This document shows, one piece after another, positions 1,205 to 12,461 of a stretch of 25,025 nucleotides of DNA (position 1 is the first letter of the stretch; each line of letters begins with the position of its first letter). This stretch comes from a virus. Position numbers and translations under genes: made by a program. Location of the stretch: positions 1 to 25,025 of IMG/VR virus record IMGVR_UViG_3300012985_000027; one strand, 5' to 3'. The notes beneath the pieces were generated by a model. That model was not told the DNA's origin. It ran no database searches and was given only the letters and a program-made list of their open reading frames with translations.

Positions 1205-1278
1205 CAGGGTATGGTGTAAAGGTTGCGCCGCCGCTTTGGGAGCGGACGATGAGGGTTCGAGTCCTTCTTCCCTGACCA
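1205..1278 (+). tRNA. tRNA-Pro(TGG)
   Basis: Cloverleaf with anticodon TGG at 1237-1239, G at position 37, T loop TTCGAGT and encoded CCA. The acceptor stem has a U.U mismatch at pair 6-67. Confidence 0.9.
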
Positions 1279-1280
1279 AT

Positions 1281-1357
1281 GGTGTTTGAAGTCAAACAGG
1301 TTGAGACACCGGGCTGTGAACCCGGTTAACTGGGTTCGAGTCCCAGCAATCACCCCA
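1281..1357 (+). tRNA. tRNA-His(GTG)
   Basis: Anticodon GTG at 1316-1318. The gene encodes the extra G(-1) at 1281, which faces C73 at 1354; this is the histidine identity pair. CCA is encoded. The acceptor stem has a U.U mismatch at pair 4-69. Confidence 0.9.
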
Positions 1358-1360
1358 ATA

Positions 1361-1435
1361 GCAGGCGGCTAGGTCGGTATCTGGCAAGGCTCATAACCTT
1401 CGCAATCCGAGTTCGACTCTCGGGCACTGCAACCA
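1361..1435 (+). tRNA. Degenerate tRNA with CAT anticodon (Met or Ile2)
   Basis: The anticodon loop with CAT at 1392-1394 and a perfect T arm (CCGAG/CTCGG) are present, and CCA ends at 1435. The acceptor stem pairs only at positions 1-4, an extra A precedes CCA, and the D and anticodon stems are crowded by one missing base. It may be a decaying gene. If active it could be tRNA-Met, or tRNA-Ile that reads ATA after lysidine modification. Confidence 0.55.
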
Positions 1436-1436
1436 T

Positions 1437-1468
1437 GGTCCCTTTCCGTTCTTGGGCGGGTAGGGGCC
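1437..1468 (+). other. Hairpin between tRNAs, possible tRNA relic
   Basis: GGTCCCT at 1437-1443 can pair over seven positions (one G-U) with AGGGGCC at 1462-1468 around 18 bases. The stem has acceptor length and starts, like the tRNAs, right after a CCAT. No anticodon or T arm is seen. Confidence 0.35.
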
Positions 1469-1473
1469 GACAT

Positions 1474-1549
1474 CTCTCTGTAGCACAGCGGATAGTGCGA
1501 GTGTTTCCTAAACACTAGGTCGAAGGTTCGAGTCCTTTCGGAGAGGCCA
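1474..1549 (+). tRNA. tRNA-Arg(CCT)
   Basis: Full cloverleaf, anticodon CCT at 1507-1509 reading AGG. The acceptor stem CTCTCTG pairs completely with CGGAGAG (one wobble). CCA is encoded. Confidence 0.93.
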
Positions 1550-1551
1550 AT

Positions 1552-1637
1552 GGAACCGTGGTGGAATGGTAAACACGCATCGCTGGAAACGATGAGTCCT
1601 CACGGGCGCGCAGGTTCGAGCCCTGCCGGTTCCGCCA
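1552..1637 (+). tRNA. tRNA-Ser(GGA)
   Basis: Class II tRNA with a long variable arm, anticodon GGA at 1585-1587, discriminator G and encoded CCA, all as expected for serine. Confidence 0.93.
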
Positions 1638-1639
1638 AT

Positions 1640-1724
1640 GGATGCTCGTAAAGGAGCACTAAACCGCCTCGAAAGCGGTGATTGCCGAGAGGCAGTAGGG
1701 GTTCGAGTCCCTTAGCATCCGCCA
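1640..1724 (+). tRNA. tRNA-Ser(CGA)
   Basis: Class II tRNA with a long variable arm, anticodon CGA at 1670-1672 reading TCG, discriminator G and encoded CCA. Confidence 0.93.
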
Positions 1725-1725
1725 T

Positions 1726-1810
1726 GGAAGCACCTACTGGTGCAGTTAGCCGATTGCTAATCGGTCAAGTCCGAAAGGGCGTACAGGTTCGAGTCCTGTT
1801 GCTTCCGCCA
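1726..1810 (+). tRNA. tRNA-Ser(GCT)
   Basis: Class II tRNA with a long variable arm, anticodon GCT at 1756-1758 reading AGC/AGT, discriminator G and encoded CCA. One base separates it from each neighbour. Confidence 0.93.
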
Positions 1811-1811
1811 T

Positions 1812-1888
1812 ACGTCCCTAGCGCAACTGGATAGCGCGACCGGCTTCTACCCGGTAGGTTGAGAGTTCGAGTCTCTCGGGATGTGCCA
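1812..1888 (+). tRNA. tRNA-Arg(TCT)
   Basis: Full cloverleaf, anticodon TCT at 1846-1848 reading AGA/AGG. The acceptor stem ACGTCCC pairs with GGGATGT. CCA is encoded. Confidence 0.93.
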
Positions 1889-1889
1889 T

Positions 1890-1965
1890 GGCTCCTTACC
1901 CAAGCGGTTAAGGGCTGCGTCTGCAAAGCGCGTGTTCGTCGGTTCGAGTCCGACAGGAGCCTCCA
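1890..1965 (+). tRNA. tRNA-Cys(GCA)
   Basis: Full cloverleaf, anticodon GCA at 1923-1925, the discriminator is U as in cysteine tRNAs, and CCA is encoded. It is the last tRNA of the first sub-block; a 100-base gap with a promoter follows. Confidence 0.93.
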
Positions 1966-2023
1966 ATAACGACTACCACCGTGTAGGTCAGCCGGACGCG
2001 CGAAGTGCACTTAAATGAGCGGG

Positions 2024-2053
2024 TTGCAGGCATCGGTCGAGTTGTGCTACGAT
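2024..2053 (+). promoter_or_regulatory. Extended -10 promoter inside the tRNA array
   Basis: TTGCAG at 2024-2029, an 18-base spacer, then TACGAT at 2048-2053 with TG at 2045-2046. The predicted start is just before the tRNA at 2066. An inverted repeat (GAAGTGC at 2002-2008, GCACTTC at 2056-2062) brackets the site and could be an operator or a leader hairpin. Confidence 0.55.
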
Positions 2054-2065
2054 ACGCACTTCAAT

Positions 2066-2141
2066 CAGGGATTAGCGCAGTTGGTAGCGCAAGGCACTGG
2101 GGGTGCCGAGGTCGCAGGTTCGAGTCCTGCATTCCTGACCA
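2066..2141 (+). tRNA. tRNA-Pro(GGG)
   Basis: Full cloverleaf, anticodon GGG at 2099-2101 with G37. The acceptor stem CAGGGAT pairs with ATTCCTG. CCA is encoded. Confidence 0.92.
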
Positions 2142-2143
2142 AT

Positions 2144-2229
2144 GGGGCCGTATATCACTAAGGACGTGACCGTGGCTGTAAACCACGCGCCATTCGGCTG
2201 GGTGAGTTCGATACTCACAGTCCCCACCA
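2144..2229 (+). tRNA. tRNA-Tyr(GTA)
   Basis: Class II tRNA with a long variable arm, anticodon GTA at 2178-2180, discriminator A and encoded CCA. The acceptor stem has C.U at pair 5-68 and G.A at pair 7-66. Confidence 0.9.
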
Positions 2230-2236
2230 ATAGGTT

Positions 2237-2311
2237 GCGAACTAATCCGGTGGGACCGGAAGCCGCCTCCAAAGCGGCCAGTTCGGGGTTCGAGTCCTCC
2301 GCTTCCTGCCA
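2237..2311 (+). tRNA. tRNA-Trp(CCA), poorly paired acceptor stem
   Basis: Anticodon CCA at 2269-2271 in a perfect stem (GCCGC/GCGGC), D stem TCCG/CGGA, discriminator G and encoded CCA. Counting back from the D stem puts base 1 at 2237, which gives C.C mismatches at pairs 2-71 and 6-67 and another C.C at 49-65. An alternative 5' strand at 2232-2238 pairs at five of seven positions but leaves seven extra bases before the D arm. Confidence 0.8.
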
Positions 2312-2313
2312 AT

Positions 2314-2388
2314 GCCTTCCTAGCACAATGGTAGTGCAATGCTTTCGTAAAGCATAGGTTCACGGTTCGAGTCCGTGGGTTGGCTCCA
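2314..2388 (+). tRNA. tRNA-Thr(CGT)
   Basis: Full cloverleaf, anticodon CGT at 2346-2348 reading ACG, encoded CCA. The acceptor stem GCCTTCC/GGTTGGC has two adjacent U.U mismatches at pairs 4-69 and 5-68. Confidence 0.9.
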
Positions 2389-2390
2389 AT

Positions 2391-2473
2391 GCCCTTGTGG
2401 TGAAATCGGCAAACACGCTGCGCTCAAACCGCAGTCCGCAAGGTTACAGGTTCGAGTCCTGTCAGGGGTACCA
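2391..2473 (+). tRNA. tRNA-Leu(CAA)
   Basis: Class II tRNA with a variable arm, anticodon CAA at 2425-2427 reading TTG, discriminator A and encoded CCA. TTG is a common leucine codon in the structural genes downstream. Confidence 0.93.
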
Positions 2474-2482
2474 AACAAGCAG

Positions 2483-2511
2483 TTGCAATCTCTAGCCCAC
2501 TGTGCTAGACT
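2483..2511 (+). promoter_or_regulatory. Extended -10 promoter for the RNase P RNA
   Basis: TTGCAA at 2483-2488, a 17-base spacer, then TAGACT at 2506-2511 with TG at 2503-2504. The predicted start, about 7 bases after the -10 box, coincides with the first base of the P1 helix at 2518. That agreement between promoter and RNA structure supports both calls. Confidence 0.7.
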
Positions 2512-2517
2512 GCGCTC

Positions 2518-2854
2518 TAGCAGTTGGAAAGACCGTCGCGCATATCCACCGATGACTTGTCTCGGTAGGTGAGTGAGGAAGGTCGGCGCAACCAGAGCCA
2601 GCCTAGAGGTTAACGGCCTTCCGGGGTGACCCGCGATACGGCAACAGTGACGAACCGACGTAATGGTCGGGTGAAACGGGCGACAGATTAGGTGTTGAAA
2701 GTCGGACAGAGCACACCGAGGCTCGGGTGCTGTCGGTAGACGAAAGAGAGTTGTCGGGTAACCGCCAACCAAGTTGGATGACGGTCCCCTGTTGTGGGAG
2801 GCTAACGCCACTTGAACCACAGGGTGACAGAACGCCGCCTAATGAGAACTGCTA
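2518..2854 (+). ncRNA. rnpB: RNase P RNA (bacterial type A-like, reduced)
   Basis: This is the catalytic RNA that cuts 5' leaders from tRNA precursors. P1: bases 2518-2525 pair with 2847-2854 over 8 pairs. P2: GACCGTC (2531-2537) pairs perfectly with GACGGTC (2780-2786). P3 is a hairpin at 2546-2569. The conserved CR-I block GAGTGAGGAAGGTC (2571-2584) leads into P4, where 2582-2588 with U2583 bulged pairs with 2833-2838 (GG-U-CGGCG region against CGCCGC). CR-V is ACAGAAC at 2827-2833. CR-II is ACAGTGACGAACCG from 2644. P9 is CGGG-GTGA-CCCG at 2622-2633 and P18 is CCAAC-CAA-GTTGG at 2765-2777. GGT at 2735-2737 within GTCGGTAGAC is a candidate for the L15 element that pairs with tRNA CCA. About 337 bases is slightly shorter than usual; P12-P14 and P16-P17 look reduced or missing. 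The protein subunit is not encoded in this window. Confidence 0.9.
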
Positions 2855-2861
2855 ATACGAT

Positions 2862-2936
2862 TACGGAATGGCCAAATGGTAAGGCTTCACGCTCTGAACG
2901 TGAGAACTCTAGGTTCGAGTCCTAGTTCCGTAGCCA
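2862..2936 (+). tRNA. tRNA-Gln(CTG)
   Basis: Full cloverleaf, anticodon CTG at 2894-2896. The acceptor stem TACGGAA pairs fully with TTCCGTA. CCA is encoded. It begins 7 bases after the end of the RNase P RNA, so both may share a transcript. Confidence 0.93.
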
Positions 2937-2938
2937 AT

Positions 2939-3014
2939 GCTCCCGCAGTCTGCGGGTAGGGATGCCACCTTGTCACGGTGGAGTCAGGGGGTTCGAGTCC
3001 CCTCGGGAGCGCCA
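2939..3014 (+). tRNA. tRNA-Asp(GTC)
   Basis: Full cloverleaf, anticodon GTC at 2972-2974, discriminator G as in aspartate tRNAs, encoded CCA. Confidence 0.94.
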
Positions 3015-3016
3015 AT

Positions 3017-3092
3017 ACCTACTTAGCACAATGGATAGTGCATCGCGCTACGAACGCGGGGGTTGGGGGTTCGAGTCCTCTAGTAGGTGCCA
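3017..3092 (+). tRNA. tRNA-Arg(ACG)
   Basis: Full cloverleaf, anticodon ACG at 3050-3052. A34 would be converted to inosine by the host deaminase TadA to read CGT, CGC and CGA. The acceptor stem is perfect and CCA is encoded. Confidence 0.93.
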
Positions 3093-3094
3093 AT

Positions 3095-3170
3095 GCTTGG
3101 GTAACTCAGTTGGTAGAGTGCGGGCTTGAAACACCCGATGCCACAGGTTCGAGTCCTGTCCGAAGCACCA
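3095..3170 (+). tRNA. tRNA-Phe(GAA)
   Basis: Best read with a seven-base loop giving anticodon GAA at 3128-3130; position 31-39 is then C.A. A TGA reading would be serine, but the class II variable arm is absent. G.G mismatch at acceptor pair 5-68. CCA is encoded. Confidence 0.85.
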
Positions 3171-3172
3171 AT

Positions 3173-3247
3173 GGGCTTGTAGTGATATAGGTAGCATGGC
3201 GCACTTGCAATGCGCACGACAGGGTTCGAGTCCCTGCTGGTCCACCA
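3173..3247 (+). tRNA. tRNA-Ala(TGC)
   Basis: Anticodon TGC at 3206-3208. The acceptor stem carries the G3.U70 alanine identity pair, discriminator A and encoded CCA, with a U.U mismatch at pair 6-67. Confidence 0.92.
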
Positions 3248-3249
3248 AT

Positions 3250-3325
3250 ACTGATGTAGTTGCAACGGCTACAACGTCGGCTTGCCAAGTCGAAGGTCCG
3301 GGTTCGACCCCCGGTATCAGTACCA
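3250..3325 (+). tRNA. tRNA-Gly(GCC)
   Basis: Full cloverleaf, anticodon GCC at 3284-3286, encoded CCA. Discriminator is A, where bacterial glycine tRNAs usually carry U. Confidence 0.9.
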
Positions 3326-3326
3326 T

Positions 3327-3400
3327 ACTCGTGTCCTTCAATGGTAGGAGGGGCGGCTGTTAACCGTCTAATCTTGGTTCGAGTCCAAGCGTGAGTGCCA
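3327..3400 (+). tRNA. tRNA-Asn(GTT)
   Basis: Full cloverleaf, anticodon GTT at 3359-3361, discriminator G, encoded CCA. Confidence 0.93.
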
Positions 3401-3402
3401 AT

Positions 3403-3477
3403 CAGAGTGTAGTGTAATGGCTGCATGGCCCGTTCGGGACGGGGCGGTTGCAGGTTCGAGTCCTGCCATTCTGACCA
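3403..3477 (+). tRNA. tRNA-Pro(CGG)
   Basis: Full cloverleaf, anticodon CGG at 3435-3437 with G37. The acceptor stem CAGAGTG pairs with CATTCTG. CCA is encoded. Confidence 0.93.
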
Positions 3478-3479
3478 AT

Positions 3480-3556
3480 GTTCGATTAGCGCAGTCGGTT
3501 AGCGCACCGCCTTGACATGGCGGGGGTCGTGAGTTCGAGTCTCACATTGAACACCA
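3480..3556 (+). tRNA. tRNA-Val(GAC)
   Basis: Full cloverleaf, anticodon GAC at 3514-3516, discriminator A, encoded CCA. Confidence 0.93.
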
Positions 3557-3558
3557 AT

Positions 3559-3634
3559 GCCGCCTTGGCCAAACTGGCAAGGCACCGCCCTCTCAAGGCG
3601 GAAAGTACGGGTTCGAGTCCCGTAGGCGGTACCA
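3559..3634 (+). tRNA. tRNA-Glu(CTC)
   Basis: Full cloverleaf, anticodon CTC at 3592-3594, encoded CCA. Reads GAG only; a second glutamate tRNA (TTC) lies at 4258. Confidence 0.92.
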
Positions 3635-3636
3635 AT

Positions 3637-3711
3637 GGGCCGGTAGCACAATGGTGGTGCAGGTGGTTCTTACCCATCCGGTTGACGGTTCGAGCCCGTC
3701 TCGGCTCTCCA
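3637..3711 (+). tRNA. tRNA-Lys(CTT)
   Basis: Full cloverleaf, anticodon CTT at 3669-3671, encoded CCA. It reads AAG, the lysine codon used almost exclusively by the phage genes in this window; no tRNA-Lys(TTT) is present. Confidence 0.92.
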
Positions 3712-3712
3712 T

Positions 3713-3788
3713 ACTCTTGCAGCACGATGGTTCGTGCAACGCACTGATACTGCGCAGGTTAGAGGTTCGAGTCCTCTCAGGAGTACCA
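3713..3788 (+). tRNA. tRNA-Ile(GAT)
   Basis: Full cloverleaf, anticodon GAT at 3746-3748, discriminator A, encoded CCA. The outermost anticodon-stem pair is A.C. Confidence 0.92.
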
Positions 3789-3790
3789 AT

Positions 3791-3866
3791 GCTCGCGTGG
3801 CGCAATGGTTAGCGCATCTCTTTTACACAGAGAGGGTTCAAGGTTCGAGTCCTTGCGGGAGTACCA
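3791..3866 (+). tRNA. tRNA-Val(TAC)
   Basis: Anticodon TAC at 3824-3826 in a perfect stem, encoded CCA. G.G mismatch at acceptor pair 5-68. Confidence 0.92.
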
Positions 3867-3868
3867 AT

Positions 3869-3953
3869 CTTCGAGTGGTGAAATGGCAAACACGCTAGGT
3901 CGAGAGCCTAGTGCTGAACAGGCTTGTGGGTTCGAGTCCCACCTTGAAGACCA
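3869..3953 (+). tRNA. tRNA-Leu(GAG) with C33
   Basis: Class II tRNA with a variable arm, anticodon GAG at 3902-3904, perfect anticodon stem CTAGG/CCTAG, encoded CCA. Position 33 at 3901 is C instead of the near-universal U. Confidence 0.9.
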
Positions 3954-3955
3954 AT

Positions 3956-4030
3956 GCCCACATAGCACAAAGGCAGTGCACGTCCTTGGTAAGGACGAGG
4001 TTCTGAGTTCGAGTCTCAGTGTCGGCTCCA
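3956..4030 (+). tRNA. tRNA-Thr(GGT)
   Basis: Full cloverleaf, anticodon GGT at 3988-3990, encoded CCA. C.C mismatch at acceptor pair 4-69. Confidence 0.91.
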
Positions 4031-4031
4031 T

Positions 4032-4118
4032 ACCCGTCTGGTGAAACAGGCAAACACACTGGCCTCAGAAGCCAGCGCCCGAAAGGGCTTGAGGGTTCAA
4101 CTCCCTCGATGGGTACCA
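4032..4118 (+). tRNA. tRNA-Leu(CAG)
   Basis: Class II tRNA with a long variable arm, anticodon CAG at 4066-4068, T loop TTCAACT, encoded CCA. Confidence 0.93.
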
Positions 4119-4121
4119 AAT

Positions 4122-4198
4122 GCGGGACTGTTGTTCAACGGTTAGCAATGCTGGCTTCCAACCAGCGAGTACCGGTTCGAGTCCGGTGTCCCGTTCCA
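4122..4198 (+). tRNA. tRNA-Gly(TCC)
   Basis: Full cloverleaf, anticodon TCC at 4157-4159, discriminator U, encoded CCA. Confidence 0.92.
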
Positions 4199-4200
4199 TG

Positions 4201-4255
4201 GGCCTCTGTCCGGCTGGTACCGGGCTCGCGGTGTGAGTCCGCAGGGGCCGCTTCA
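4201..4255 (+). other. tRNA-like element lacking the anticodon arm
   Basis: A 7-pair acceptor-like stem (GGCCTCT at 4201-4207 with AGGGGCC at 4243-4249) encloses a D-arm-like hairpin (CCGG-CTGGTA-CCGG, 4210-4223) and a T-arm-like hairpin (GCGG-TGTGAGT-CCGC, 4228-4242). There is no anticodon arm. The 3' end reads G-CTTCA instead of a discriminator plus CCA, and T precedes the element by two bases. It sits in line between tRNA-Gly and tRNA-Glu. It may be a tRNA whose anticodon domain was deleted, or a retained tRNA mimic. Confidence 0.55.
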
Positions 4256-4257
4256 AT

Positions 4258-4334
4258 GTCGCTTTCGTCTAGTGGTCTAGGATGCCCGACTTTCAATCGG
4301 GAAGACAAGGGTTCGACTCCCTTAAGCGGTACCA
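4258..4334 (+). tRNA. tRNA-Glu(TTC)
   Basis: Full cloverleaf, anticodon TTC at 4292-4294, encoded CCA. The acceptor stem GTCGCTT pairs with AAGCGGT using two wobbles. Confidence 0.92.
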
Positions 4335-4336
4335 AT

Positions 4337-4410
4337 GCACCTATCGTTCAATGGTAGGACAGAGCCTTTGTAACGCTCTGATGCGGGTTCAACTCCTGCT
4401 GGGTGCTCCA
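4337..4410 (+). tRNA. tRNA-Thr(TGT)
   Basis: Anticodon TGT at 4369-4371, T loop TTCAACT, encoded CCA. The anticodon-stem closing pair 31-39 is C.C. Confidence 0.9.
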
Positions 4411-4674
4411 TGCCCGGTGCTTCGTGCTGTAGCGGTTCCAAGCCGCGACCGGGTTACACTACATACGGCTAAGGCTGGGTGCGGAACTCGAACCCCCCGG
4501 CTACGCCCAAGGGCGCAGAAGACCTCCGGGCGACTGCGGGCTCGTGCTGGAAACGGCGGCGATGGTGGACTCCCTACACACCAACTACATTGTGGTACTC
4601 CTGTTGGAGCCAGCGTCAACCGTAACATCGTAGGGTTGGGGCAGCGGCTGTGAAGGTGGGGGGCGGTGCTTAAT
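4411..4674. other. 264-base gap in the tRNA array, structured, no assigned gene
   Basis: No convincing tRNA or protein gene is seen on either strand. Local structure is strong: CCCGGT (4413-4418) pairs with ACCGGG (4448-4453) around an inner GCGG/CCGC hairpin at 4432-4446 whose seven-base loop resembles an anticodon loop, and CGCCC-AA-GGGCG lies near 4506-4517. GCTGG near 4546 can pair with CCAGC near 4611. On the minus strand near 4480-4495 there is a T-arm-like GGTTCGAGTTCC, without a cloverleaf around it. It could be relics of several tRNAs or an unknown small RNA. Confidence 0.4.
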
Positions 4675-4750
4675 CGTTTCTTAGCCAAGTGGTTAAGGCA
4701 GGGGTTTCATACGCCCCCACGCGGTGGTTCGACTCCACCAGAAACGACCA
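4675..4750 (+). tRNA. tRNA-Met(CAT)
   Basis: Full cloverleaf, anticodon CAT at 4708-4710, perfect acceptor stem CGTTTCT/AGAAACG, discriminator A and encoded CCA. Position 1-72 is a C-G pair, unlike the initiator type, so it is an elongator tRNA-Met or a lysidine-type tRNA-Ile. Confidence 0.9.
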
Positions 4751-4751
4751 T

Positions 4752-4820
4752 GGGGCTCCGTACCCAGCGCCTCGGCGCATTGCGGCTTGCAGCGGGGAGG
4801 CAGTCCCGTTGGCCCCTTCA
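4752..4820 (+). other. tRNA-like relic between the last two tRNAs
   Basis: GGGGCT at the 5' end can pair with GGCCCC near 4811-4816, enclosing small hairpins (GCGC-CTCG-GCGC, and CGGGG/TCCCG near the 3' side). It ends in TTCA rather than CCA and has no TTCGA T loop. A decayed tRNA is the simplest explanation. Confidence 0.3.
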
Positions 4821-4824
4821 CTAT

Positions 4825-4899
4825 TCCCCTCTCGTCTAATGGTAGGACGGACGGCTTTGAACCGTTCAGATGTTGGTTCGAGTCCAGCATGGGGAACCA
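4825..4899 (+). tRNA. tRNA-Gln(TTG)
   Basis: Anticodon TTG at 4857-4859, encoded CCA. The acceptor stem has U.U at pair 6-67 and C.A at pair 7-66. It is the last tRNA before the terminator. Confidence 0.91.
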
Positions 4900-4985: not shown

Positions 4986-5684
4986 ATGGCAGGTATTGAC
5001 ATCGAAGCGAAGAAGCCTGTCACACGAAGGCAGAGCGCATCCTCGACCCAAGGTGCACGAGTCACGAACGGACCCGGTGCTGTGTCCCGCACGCGCAATC
5101 TCACTGGTGAGAAGCGCAAGGCTGGTAGACCGCCCGGTGCGAAGAACAAGCCGAAGTCGATGGTGCCCGCTGAACTGGCCGACGAACTGTTGGTCAAGTT
5201 GCAGGGAACGCTCCCTGACGAGCACTACCAATACCTCAAGGGCGTTGTCAAGAAGGGCGATGCAATCGCCACCGAGAAGGAACTGGACATCCTCATCCTG
5301 CTGCTGGGACGCAACCTGCACCCGGCGCTGATTGAGGAAACGCTGGCCTTCGATGACGACGGTCCCGACGACGATGAAGATGTACTAGAACCACAGCCTC
5401 ACGGAGGCGCGCTCAAGCGCCCCAAGTCTGTGACCTTCTTCCGCAAGGACGTTACCGAACGTCTCAAGGTGCTGAACTCTCTGCTCTCACTGAGGCACCA
5501 GATGGAGAAGACGAAGGACGAGCAGAAGGACGGCAAGCAGCCGCTTATCACCATTGTCGCAGACCGCAACCTCCTTGACGGCGGAAGACTTGGTGTCCTA
5601 CTTGGCGGTGTCCCCGGCCCTGTGGCTGGAAACACTGACGGAGTTGGACGGCCAGCCCTTCCGGCTCGAACCGTATCAGATTAG
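4986..5684 (+). CDS. Putative terminase small subunit
   Basis: The protein has 232 residues. Near residues 43-55 it has a basic RKAGRPPGAKNK stretch, the AT-hook-like GRPxGxKN signature common at the front of phage small terminases, followed by helical segments and an acidic patch DDDGPDDDEDV. GGAG precedes the ATG at a good distance; an in-frame ATG at 4971 overlaps the terminator T-tract and lacks a ribosome site. Position directly before the large terminase supports the call. The last 44 codons overlap the start of the large terminase in another frame. Confidence 0.6.
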   Translation: MAGIDIEAKKPVTRRQSASSTQGARVTNGPGAVSRTRNLTGEKRKAGRPPGAKNKPKSMVPAELADELLVKLQGTLPDEHYQYLKGVVKKGDAIATEKELDILILLLGRNLHPALIEETLAFDDDGPDDDEDVLEPQPHGGALKRPKSVTFFRKDVTERLKVLNSLLSLRHQMEKTKDEQKDGKQPLITIVADRNLLDGGRLGVLLGGVPGPVAGNTDGVGRPALPARTVSD

Positions 5685-6996
5685 GTATCTCAACGACAGG
5701 GCGGTTTTCCGCATTGTCAACAAGTCCCGGCAGATTGGTTTCTCGACCATCCTCGCCGGAGAGGCAACCTTCAACGCGGTAACGAAGCCAGCCTACAAGG
5801 CGAACATCGTTTCCATCAACCAGAAGGAAGCCGCCGACAAGATTGAGATTGCCGCCAACCTGTACCACAGCATTCCCGACGCCTTCATGGAGTCGGACCC
5901 TGTGCTCAAGCCGGTTCTCTGGACGAACGCCAACGACGAAATCTCGTTCCACCGTCCGCCCATCACGTCCAGCATCATCAGCCAGCCCGCCTCGGCGGCT
6001 GTTCGTGGTGGTCGCAAGGACATCTACTTCGATGAGTTCGCGCACATCCGCGATGCCGTCAAGTTGTACCGCGCTGCTATGCCAGCCATCACGAGAGGCG
6101 ACTCTCGGCTGACCATCATCAGCACGCCGCTCGGCCAGAGCGGTCTGTTCTACGACATTGCGTCGAACGAGCAGGCGTACCCTGAGTACAGTCGCCACGC
6201 AGTGCCGTGGTGGGAGTGCTCCGCAATGGTGAAGCCTGAGCGGTACGAGGAAGCCCTCGCACTGGCAGCGGCCATGGACCAAGGCTCCGAGGCTCGGGTC
6301 CTTGAGTACGGCACCGACAAGTTGCGCATCATCTACAACGGCTTCGGTGGGGACCTCATCGGGTTCCAGACCGAGTACGAGGCCACGTTCGCGGACGAGG
6401 CCACAGCCTACTACACTTGGGACCTCATCGTCAACTCGACGGACAGCGAGTTGCCGGTCCTCAAGGAGTGGAACCCTAACTACAAGAGTACCGGCTACAT
6501 GAGCATTGGCATCGACCTTGCTCGTGACCGGGACCAAACCGTGTTCACGGTGGTTGAAACTACGGACGACGGGCACCGCAAGGTCTTGTTCTGCAAGCCT
6601 ACGCAGGACCCGTACAACGAACAGTTCGACTACATGAAGACGCTCATCAACGCAGTCCAGCCAAGCCGCGTTACCATCGACCAGACGGGTGTCGGTCAGA
6701 AGTTCGTAGAGGATGCCAAGCGCCTCATCCCCGGTGTCAACATCGAGGGTACGGTCTTCACCAACGCCAAGAAGGAACGATGGGCAACCACCCTCAAGGG
6801 TGATATGCAGGTTGGCAACGTCAGTTGGCCGAACATCGGGGACCTTCGCCGTCAAATCCACGGCATCAAGAGGACCAAGACAGAAACCAACTTCTACAAG
6901 TTCGCCGGAGCGAAGGACGACTACTTCTGGTCGCTGGCACTCGCCTTGTATGGTGAGGGCAGGCAGCCAGCACGCATCTCCTTCGTCGGCGGGTAG
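5554..6996 (+). CDS. terL: Terminase large subunit (packaging ATPase-nuclease)
   Basis: Powers DNA packaging into the prohead and cuts concatemers. The protein has up to 480 residues, within the family range. Walker A-like NKSRQIGFST lies near residues 56-65, Walker B IYFDEFA near 157-163, and the coupling motif ISTP near 189. The RNase H-like nuclease shows IGIDLARDRDQT near 318-329, VTIDQTG near 374-380 and a late acidic DDYFW near 455. The frame begins at TTG 5554, inside the small terminase gene; no ATG is available, and TTG 5590 or GTG 5593 (after GGAAG) are alternatives, so the start is uncertain. Confidence 0.93.
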   Translation: MSQTATSLTAEDLVSYLAVSPALWLETLTELDGQPFRLEPYQIRYLNDRAVFRIVNKSRQIGFSTILAGEATFNAVTKPAYKANIVSINQKEAADKIEIAANLYHSIPDAFMESDPVLKPVLWTNANDEISFHRPPITSSIISQPASAAVRGGRKDIYFDEFAHIRDAVKLYRAAMPAITRGDSRLTIISTPLGQSGLFYDIASNEQAYPEYSRHAVPWWECSAMVKPERYEEALALAAAMDQGSEARVLEYGTDKLRIIYNGFGGDLIGFQTEYEATFADEATAYYTWDLIVNSTDSELPVLKEWNPNYKSTGYMSIGIDLARDRDQTVFTVVETTDDGHRKVLFCKPTQDPYNEQFDYMKTLINAVQPSRVTIDQTGVGQKFVEDAKRLIPGVNIEGTVFTNAKKERWATTLKGDMQVGNVSWPNIGDLRRQIHGIKRTKTETNFYKFAGAKDDYFWSLALALYGEGRQPARISFVGG

Positions 6997-10963: not shown

Positions 10964-11395
10964 ATGTCCGAGGACACAATCCAACTTCTCAACCCGTTCT
11001 TGAGGCAGGCCCGCATTCGGGTCTTCCACTTCTACGACGGGCGTGCGCCTGTTGAGGGCGGTGTCATCACTATCCCTGCGAACAAGCCGCAGTGGGTACA
11101 GCGTGCATACATCATGGGCTACAACAAGAACATCGACGGTAGCCCCACCACAGTAGCCGAGGCCCTCCGTGGCTTCACCCCAGCCCCCGTGGCTGCAAGC
11201 ACCGAGAGTGCAGGAGAAACGAATGACGAAGGTCTTGATGCTGGGGGACTCCCCGGTGATGGAGACGGGGTTCGGTCGAGTGAACCGGAAGGCCCTGCTG
11301 GCGATGACGAAGGCGGGGATGGAAGTGGCGTCGGTATCGGCGTTGCAGAGGGAAGCGAAGGAGACGACGCTCCCGGTGACGCAGTTCCTACCTGA
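10964..11395 (+). CDS. Small protein with acidic Gly-rich tail, overlaps the glycosyltransferase
   Basis: The protein has 143 residues. Residues 1-75 look folded (FLRQARIRVFHFYDG, GGVITIPANKPQWVQRAYIMGYN); residues from about 85 are Gly/Asp/Glu-rich low complexity. AAGGAG precedes the ATG. The low-complexity tail is exactly the part that overlaps the next gene by 173 bases in another frame, so only the first half is likely under strong selection. I do not recognise the family; a head accessory role is suggested by position after the capsid gene. Confidence 0.7.
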   Translation: MSEDTIQLLNPFLRQARIRVFHFYDGRAPVEGGVITIPANKPQWVQRAYIMGYNKNIDGSPTTVAEALRGFTPAPVAASTESAGETNDEGLDAGGLPGDGDGVRSSEPEGPAGDDEGGDGSGVGIGVAEGSEGDDAPGDAVPT

Positions 11396-12461
11396 ACCCA
11401 ACGACCCGCAGGGGTTGTTCACAGTCATCGACGTAATCGAGAACAAGAAGTTCGAGCCTGATGTCATCTACCTGACCGGCGACCCCGGCTCGGTAGCAGC
11501 ATACGCTTCGGTCATCCCGGCCCGTATCCCGGTCACAGCCTACGTCCCCGTAGAAGGGGAGCCACTCCTGAACGAGGGATGGCGTGCAGTGCTCGGTGCG
11601 ATTGACTTCGCAACCACCACGGAGTACGGCCAGAAGATTGTCAAGCGTGACATGGGCATCGACGTGCCGTACTTCTACCACGGCGTTGACACCGAAGTGT
11701 TCAACCCGCTGACCGACGAAGACCGTGCGGCGTACCGTTCCCGCCTCGGCTGGGACGACAAGTTCGTAGTCGTGTGCGTGGCTCAGAACGTACGCAGGAA
11801 GCAGTTGACTCGTCTCATCGAGTCGATTGCCGTGCTCAAGCACAACTACAACCAGAAGGACATCGTGCTGTACCTGCACACCGTCCCGTTCCAGAACTAC
11901 TGGCTCGAAGGATGGAACCTGCCCGAAGTCGCGGCAGGGATGCGGGTAAGCGACAGCGTGATGTTCAACCCACTGATGTCCGGCTTCGGAAAGTCCGTCC
12001 CCGAACGGGGCGACATGGACGTGCCGGGGCTCCGCGAACTCGTCGGTTCTGCCGACCTGTTCGTACTCCCCTCTCAGGTTGAGGGCTTCGGTCTTCCCAT
12101 CGCGGAGGCAATGGCAGTAGGCACACCGGTCGCCGTCACCAAGTATGCGGCAGGCTGGGAAGTTGCACGGCTCGGGCAAGGCGCTGGCCTCACGGTTAGC
12201 GACTGGGAAATCCACAAGAGCGGTGTTCGCTACGCCAACGTCGATGTGAACGACATGGCCAAGACCATCCTCGGCCTCAAGCGTGACCCACGCAGACTCC
12301 AAAGGATGCGTGCCGCTGGGCTAGCAGCAGTGCCTCAGTTCAACTGGGCAGGTTTCGAGGGGTACATCGTTGAGCAGATTGAAGCGGTCCGCTCCCGGCA
12401 TGAGGCAGGGAGTGGGCTCCCGCAACAGGCACATTCAGGGCGGGAGGAAGCCGGGTCGTAA
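11223..12461 (+). CDS. GT4-type glycosyltransferase (GT-B fold)
   Basis: Would transfer a sugar from a nucleotide-sugar donor. The protein has 412 residues. The N-terminal Rossmann half starts KVLMLGDSPV...GFGRVN; the C-terminal half has FVVVCVAQNVRRKQLTRLIESIAVL near residue 180, then LFVLPSQVEGFGLPIAEAMAVGTPVAV near 280-305, the E-x7-E signature of GT4 enzymes. GGAG before ATG 11223 sets the start. It sits inside the head gene cluster, between capsid and connector, so a virion protein is a plausible acceptor; modification of a host surface sugar is an alternative. Confidence 0.9.
   Translation: MTKVLMLGDSPVMETGFGRVNRKALLAMTKAGMEVASVSALQREAKETTLPVTQFLPEPNDPQGLFTVIDVIENKKFEPDVIYLTGDPGSVAAYASVIPARIPVTAYVPVEGEPLLNEGWRAVLGAIDFATTTEYGQKIVKRDMGIDVPYFYHGVDTEVFNPLTDEDRAAYRSRLGWDDKFVVVCVAQNVRRKQLTRLIESIAVLKHNYNQKDIVLYLHTVPFQNYWLEGWNLPEVAAGMRVSDSVMFNPLMSGFGKSVPERGDMDVPGLRELVGSADLFVLPSQVEGFGLPIAEAMAVGTPVAVTKYAAGWEVARLGQGAGLTVSDWEIHKSGVRYANVDVNDMAKTILGLKRDPRRLQRMRAAGLAAVPQFNWAGFEGYIVEQIEAVRSRHEAGSGLPQQAHSGREEAGS

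Follow-up and report, generated by a model that had tools for sequence, protein, structure and literature searches.

The window, as we term the whole 25,025-base stretch of DNA analysed here, is an entire IMG/VR record and contains on its plus strand, at positions 2518–2854 from P1 to P1′, a full-length type A RNase P RNA with a reduced specificity (S) domain, which by its covariance model match and by covariation in 10 copies is a diverged but unmistakable member of this known family. We consider it probable (roughly 0.8) that this phage gene is functional and supplies the catalytic RNA of RNase P, which would mature the phage's own tRNA transcript together with the RnpA protein of the host. 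A sequence-only reading of the window had proposed an RNase P RNA at this position and had named Rfam covariance models as the check, and the RF00010 model indeed aligned significantly over its whole length (model positions 1–367) to window positions 2520–2856 (90.5 bits, E-value 2.6e-28). Since this score is just under the RF00010 gathering score of 100 bits, the RNA is missed by default Rfam annotation; a scan of the window at gathering level returned tRNAs only, with the RNase P RNA surfacing when an E-value threshold was applied. Ten related records also matched RF00010 with 94–140.5 bits (E-values of about 1e-30 or less, best 6e-47), nine of them above the cut-off. The two lineage copies below the cut-off, those of the window and of record L024, are diverged (about 90–94 bits), and the phage copies score lower than bacterial rnpB, which typically reaches ~300 bits against the same model. 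Single-sequence thermodynamic folding of 2518–2854 gave no signal (z = −0.97), and the identification rests on the covariance model and on covariation, not on thermodynamic folding.

The universal sequence blocks quoted in the sequence-only reading were all found in place (GAGTGAGGAAGGTC at 2571–2584, ACAGTGACGAACCG at 2644–2657 and ACAGAAC at 2827–2833), as were the P1 of eight pairs (TAGCAGTT at 2518–2525 with AACTGCTA at 2847–2854) and the P2 of seven pairs (GACCGTC at 2531–2537 with GACGGTC at 2780–2786) that it described. Its P4, with CGGCG/CGCCG around a retained bulged U, was likewise recovered: G2582 and CGGCG at 2584–2588 flank the bulged equivalent of U69 at 2583, and pair with CGCCGC at 2833–2838. 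P6 is a pseudoknot between GAGCC at 2595–2599 and GGCUC at 2720–2724, the latter located in L17. The specificity domain (2644–2676) was delineated by the RF00010 alignment and consists of CR-II (ACAGUGACGA), a short P12 (2655–2659 with 2666–2670) and CR-III (GUGAAA), and the same alignment places the equivalent of A248 at 2699 in J5/15. The sequence further shows a GGU motif at 2735–2737, equivalent to G292–U294, a P18 at 2750–2769 with a GUAA loop of the GNRA type, and a P19 hairpin at 2787–2824. The equivalents of U69, A248 and GGU are hence all present in the window copy; according to PMC11143913, A248 in J5/15 faces N−1 of the pre-tRNA and the GGU motif pairs with the RCCA at the 3′ end of the tRNA. 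In relatives the GGU motif can be altered, to GAGU in L013, L015, L016 and L017 and to GGAGA in L019 and L020, although all array tRNAs encode CCA.

Comparison of the 10 distinct copies indicates that the phage RNase P RNA is conserved by descent and is under structural selection. Within a set of 50 pairs in P2, P4, P5, P6, P7, P8, P12, P16 and P18, 96.6% of the 500 cells were paired, and 29 of the 50 pairs were changed on both sides. The covariation score was 0.492, compared with 0.154 in shuffles, and was reached by none of 500 shuffled sets, while sliding the 3′ strands by 1–3 columns left only 30–46% pairing. P4 was 100% paired in all 10 copies, with two-sided changes at two of its six pairs and the bulged U69 kept, and P6 was also 100% paired, with two-sided changes at three of its five pairs. 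P6 occurs as GAGCC/GGCUC, GUUGC/GCAAC, GUGAC/GUCAC and GCUGC/GCAGC, all four fully paired, and as covariance models cannot score pseudoknots, this covariation is independent of the RF00010 score. Pairing of P1 (6–9 pairs) and of P9 was seen in every copy, the P9 loop being GNRA in all, and the P18 loops are GUAA or GCAA.

The specificity domain is reduced, and the sequence-only reading had described P12–P14 as lacking. This holds for P13 and P14, which are absent from the phage RNA in the RF00010 alignment, but not for P12, which is present as a covarying hairpin of 4–5 pairs across the relatives and of 5 pairs in the window. A short S domain as an invention of the phage was considered and rejected, as the same reduction (ACAGNGACGA, short P12, GUGAAACGGG) was found in the rnpB of many Burkholderiales, some Chloroflexi, Omnitrophota, CPR and other bacteria. 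Bacterial type A RNase P RNAs without P13 and P14 have been described (PMC8172020), and these helices are therefore not required for type A. The P19 hairpin carries a motif (GUUGUGGGAG / UGAACCAC) that is common to most of the phage lineage, and was not found among 120 bacterial loci with a pattern-selected RNase P RNA.

The gene for the terminase large subunit (5554–6996, plus strand) marks the window as a tailed-phage fragment. The window further encodes a portal protein and a major head protein and contains a long ORF that resembles a tape-measure gene; a glycosyltransferase gene (phrog_2170, E-value 1e-23) is located at 11169–12461 within the head gene region. With the terminase as query, relatives were detected only in viral contigs (23 close relatives with 58–82% identity and one with 23%), with a profile search returning 48, and none were detected in 84,980 species genomes. 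Two longer relatives, G023 (111 kb) and G018 (63 kb), both carry genes for an integrase, a DnaG-type primase and ArdC, and G023 additionally for a DnaB helicase and a ribonucleotide reductase, a gene content that points to a possibly temperate lineage.

In the window and in all 10 related records with an RF00010 match, the RNase P RNA is located between tRNA-Leu(CAA) (2391–2473 in the window, plus strand), identified by ARAGORN and by synteny in relatives, and tRNA-Gln(CTG) (2862–2936, plus strand), whose 5′ processing site is 7 nt past P1′. Records L008 and L009 begin within the RNA, with its 3′ portion retained ahead of tRNA-Gln, which brings the total to 13 records including the window, from many different metagenomes, with L019 and L020 being nearly identical. 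That at least 12 related records carry this gene in this very position argues for a selected working part rather than an accident, and the RF00010 match, the repeated synteny and the phage terminase together bear out the original proposal of a phage-encoded RNase P RNA embedded in a tRNA array. In the close relatives L010 and L011, the region analysed around the terminase is free of tRNA genes and the whole record contains no RNase P RNA, and the distant relatives L205, L219 and L222 have 25–29 tRNAs without an RNase P RNA, which is thus dispensable for having a tRNA array. Judged from this distribution, the RNA would most simply have been gained once, on the branch to the window's clade.

Upstream of P1 we found a candidate promoter, TTGCAA-17-TAGACT (2483–2511, plus strand), with the −10 element ending 6 nt ahead of P1. 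A TTGACA-17-TAnACT sequence or a close variant precedes all 10 copies and ends 6–8 nt before P1, with a spacing of 18 in one copy. A scan with a generic promoter consensus did not flag the window copy, and the promoter call is based on the kept sequence and distance across copies, from which we infer that a σ70-type promoter drives the RNase P RNA, with transcription starting at the first nucleotide of P1. The tRNA array of the window (1205–4899, plus strand) contains 32 tRNAs according to ARAGORN, to which Met(cat) and Tyr(gta) were added at relaxed settings; the relaxed-setting predictions, which also included a Gly(ccc)-like tRNA, are at 1356–1430, 2143–2229 and 4539–4622. All 32 ARAGORN tRNAs encode CCA, and 31 of them are preceded by U at −1, the exception being tRNA-His with G, while U−1 is found in about 60% of E. 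coli precursors (PMC11143913). Spacers of ≤3 nt make up 24 of the 31 in the window array, compared with a median of 6–7 nt in the wider-spaced arrays of distant related phages that have no RNase P RNA. Among the 46 tRNAs in the array of the 111-kb relative is one with CUA anticodon (L024:1985–2058, designated Pyl by ARAGORN), a possible amber suppressor.

In the mechanism that we propose, a transcript would start at P1 from the RNA's own σ70-type promoter and read through into the downstream tRNAs, and its RNase P part would fold into the ribozyme core of type A, with the specificity domain reduced. Together with host RnpA, or alone at need, this ribozyme would cut the 5′ ends within the polycistronic tRNA precursor, and since the tRNAs are mostly 1–3 nt apart, with encoded CCA and U at −1, a single RNase P cut per tRNA may suffice to free nearly mature ends on either side of the spacer. 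Cleavage at tRNA-Gln would, in addition, set the 3′ end of the ribozyme itself. The distance from P1′ to tRNA-Gln is 6–10 nt in eight of the 10 copies, and such self-release would not be general, as it is 113 nt in L019 and 702 nt in L024. A search for an RnpA gene (PF00825) was positive in 10 of 14 control genomes and found none in 43 viral records, which are possibly fragments, so that the phage RNA would need host RnpA or act alone. The proposal builds on the identity of the RNA, its selected structure and kept place, the promoter motif, the anatomy of the array and the lack of RnpA in the records searched, and from these we infer transcription, catalysis, the use of host RnpA and self-release. 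The altered GGU motif in six related records and the tRNA arrays of L205, L219 and L222, which exist without the RNA, count against the proposal.

The main rival to this proposal is a non-catalytic decoy or regulator in the shape of RNase P, which would bind host RnpA or pre-tRNAs and lower host RNase P activity without cutting. Such a role would fit with the lack of an encoded RnpA in the records searched, with the divergence of the window and L024 copies and with the rewriting of the catalytic helix P4 described below. However, P4 with its bulged U, the core blocks and P6 are all retained and covary, which a decoy would not require, and the RNA is placed in a dense tRNA array with encoded CCA and spacers favourable to RNase P; we consider this alternative improbable. 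A decaying remnant without present function, as might be suggested by scores below those of bacterial rnpB, seems hardly credible, being contradicted by the two-sided changes at 29 of the 50 pairs and by the retention of a promoter at a constant distance among divergent copies. Chance pickup of a host rnpB, be it a misassembly, a contaminant or bacterial DNA carried by transduction, has parallels in annotated phage records with bacterial-looking DNA (Microcystis phage MaAM05), but is refuted by the repeated synteny, with the same two flanking phage tRNAs in 13 records and a phage terminase nearby. The lack of relatives of this terminase in the 84,980 species genomes and the absence of a close bacterial copy among the bacterial RNase P RNAs compared also speak against it.

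RNase P RNA is regarded as belonging to the core genes of cells. The phage RNA shares with bacterial type A rnpB (RF00010) the full-length match, the core helices, the P4 with bulged U, P6, P15–P18 and the core blocks, as well as, in the window copy, the GGU motif, and differs by its location in a tRNA array, its own P19 motif, its non-GUCCR P4 and the lack of a detected rnpA gene, whereas the loss of P13 and P14 is also seen in some bacteria. Engineered self-cleaving conjugates of RNase P RNA and pre-tRNA likewise place the ribozyme and its substrate tRNA in the same transcript; in the window the arrangement occurs naturally, with 7 nt linking the RNA to tRNA-Gln and putative cleavage in cis. 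The tRNA arrays of T4 and many other phages resemble that of the window in being polycistronic and matured by RNase P, and T4 tRNA precursors are classic substrates of the host enzyme (PMC11143913), but T4 depends on host RNase P RNA whereas the phage of the window has its own. The HDV-like theta ribozymes are also phage-encoded ribozymes in tRNA regions, which adjoin phage tRNAs and were proposed to mature these (PMC10879173); they are small and self-cleaving, act once and remove the 3′ trailer, with 5′ maturation left to the cellular enzyme in that study, while RNase P RNA acts in trans on 5′ ends with multiple turnover. In the open-access literature, including a study of huge phages (PMC7162821) and two reviews (PMC11143913, PMC4919922), we found no report of a phage-encoded RNase P RNA, subscription papers and preprints being outside this scope. 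As far as the open-access literature shows, the phage setting, the own promoter, the position in the array and the altered P4 are undescribed. A phage with its own RNase P RNA and promoter, beside tRNAs for nearly all amino acids, would have withdrawn a further step of translation from host control, which bears on why phages carry tRNAs, be it for codon supply or for escape from tRNA-cutting defences, and raises the question whether host RNase P fails during infection.

The sequence-only reading considered that few phages carry RNase P RNA, which proved to be an understatement. Two pattern scans of IMG/VR gave many further candidates, and RF00010 matches were obtained in 35 of the 50 IMG/VR records tested, 33 of these above the cut-off. 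Many of these RNAs are inside tRNA arrays, on unrelated and often very large viral contigs of up to 455–463 kb, and phage-borne RNase P RNA in tRNA arrays thus appears to be recurrent. Examples are L043:7064–7438, L093:4030–4350, L056:1102–1400 and L073:1231–1539, with further array-embedded copies in L045, L098, L058, L039, L067, L074, L075, L138 and L139, many of which exceed 100 kb. A diverged terminase of about 700 residues was found in all three large contigs checked (G032, G041 and G064), and no convincing S7 gene was found in 33 records; some of the large contigs could be bacterial. A FastTree phylogeny, which with about 300 sites is a sketch only, placed the clade of the window apart from most other viral RNAs, which form several groups.

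The phage and bacterial RNAs contrast strongly in the sequence of P4, which is the most conserved helix of the RNA. The 5′ strand of P4 was GUCCR, with a matching 3′ strand, in all 166 bacterial copies in which P4 was found (108 from pattern-scan loci and 58 from two phyla, sets that are biased to high scorers or to the search pattern). None of the 10 copies of the window lineage has GUCCR, with GUCGGCG, GUCCCCG or GUCUCCG in its place, and 15 of the 22 other viral copies in which P4 was found also deviate (GUCGGAG, GUCGGGG, GUCAGGA, GUCGGGA), counts that do not represent independent events, as several viral copies are closely related. The deviating viral strands are always matched by a compensating opposite strand. 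We tentatively suggest, as an idea that is more likely wrong than right, that several unrelated phage lineages acquired an RNase P RNA within their tRNA arrays and rewrote both strands of P4 (GUCG.../...CGC, GUCA.../...UGC and GUCCCC.../...GGGGC replacing GUCCR.../...GGC), yielding a second RNase P distinct from that of the host, perhaps proof against a phage- or host-made factor that disables the host enzyme via its conserved P4, with self-release at tRNA-Gln in the window lineage. Rewriting of P4 in independent phage lineages would amount to a ready-made mutagenesis of the catalytic core.

Blastn with the window copy as query gave no match in 50,697 phage records and 72,556 plasmids. RNase P RNAs from three other viral contigs gave few matches in the phage collection. 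These matches, for the most part bacterial or of bacterial appearance, fell in a Salmonella assembly, in contigs labelled Acinetobacter phage, in a 'Bacteriophage sp.' record without annotation and in Microcystis phage MaAM05. The 'complete genome' of MaAM05 (L408, MW495066.1, 112385–118472) has fabI, engB and mtgA next to the RNase P-like match, and seems to contain bacterial DNA. As to the closest bacterial rnpB, the pattern scan returned mostly Burkholderiales, yet the tree, in which the bacterial reference set is pattern-biased, places the phage clade inside none of these. Among the other viral contigs, the arrays of L043, L093, L056, L073, L045, L058 and L039 are made up nearly exclusively of tRNAs for Ala, Gly, Val, Asp and Glu (GNN codons) and Cys, and tmRNA genes are located near the RNase P RNA in L074, L138, L063, L064 and L077.
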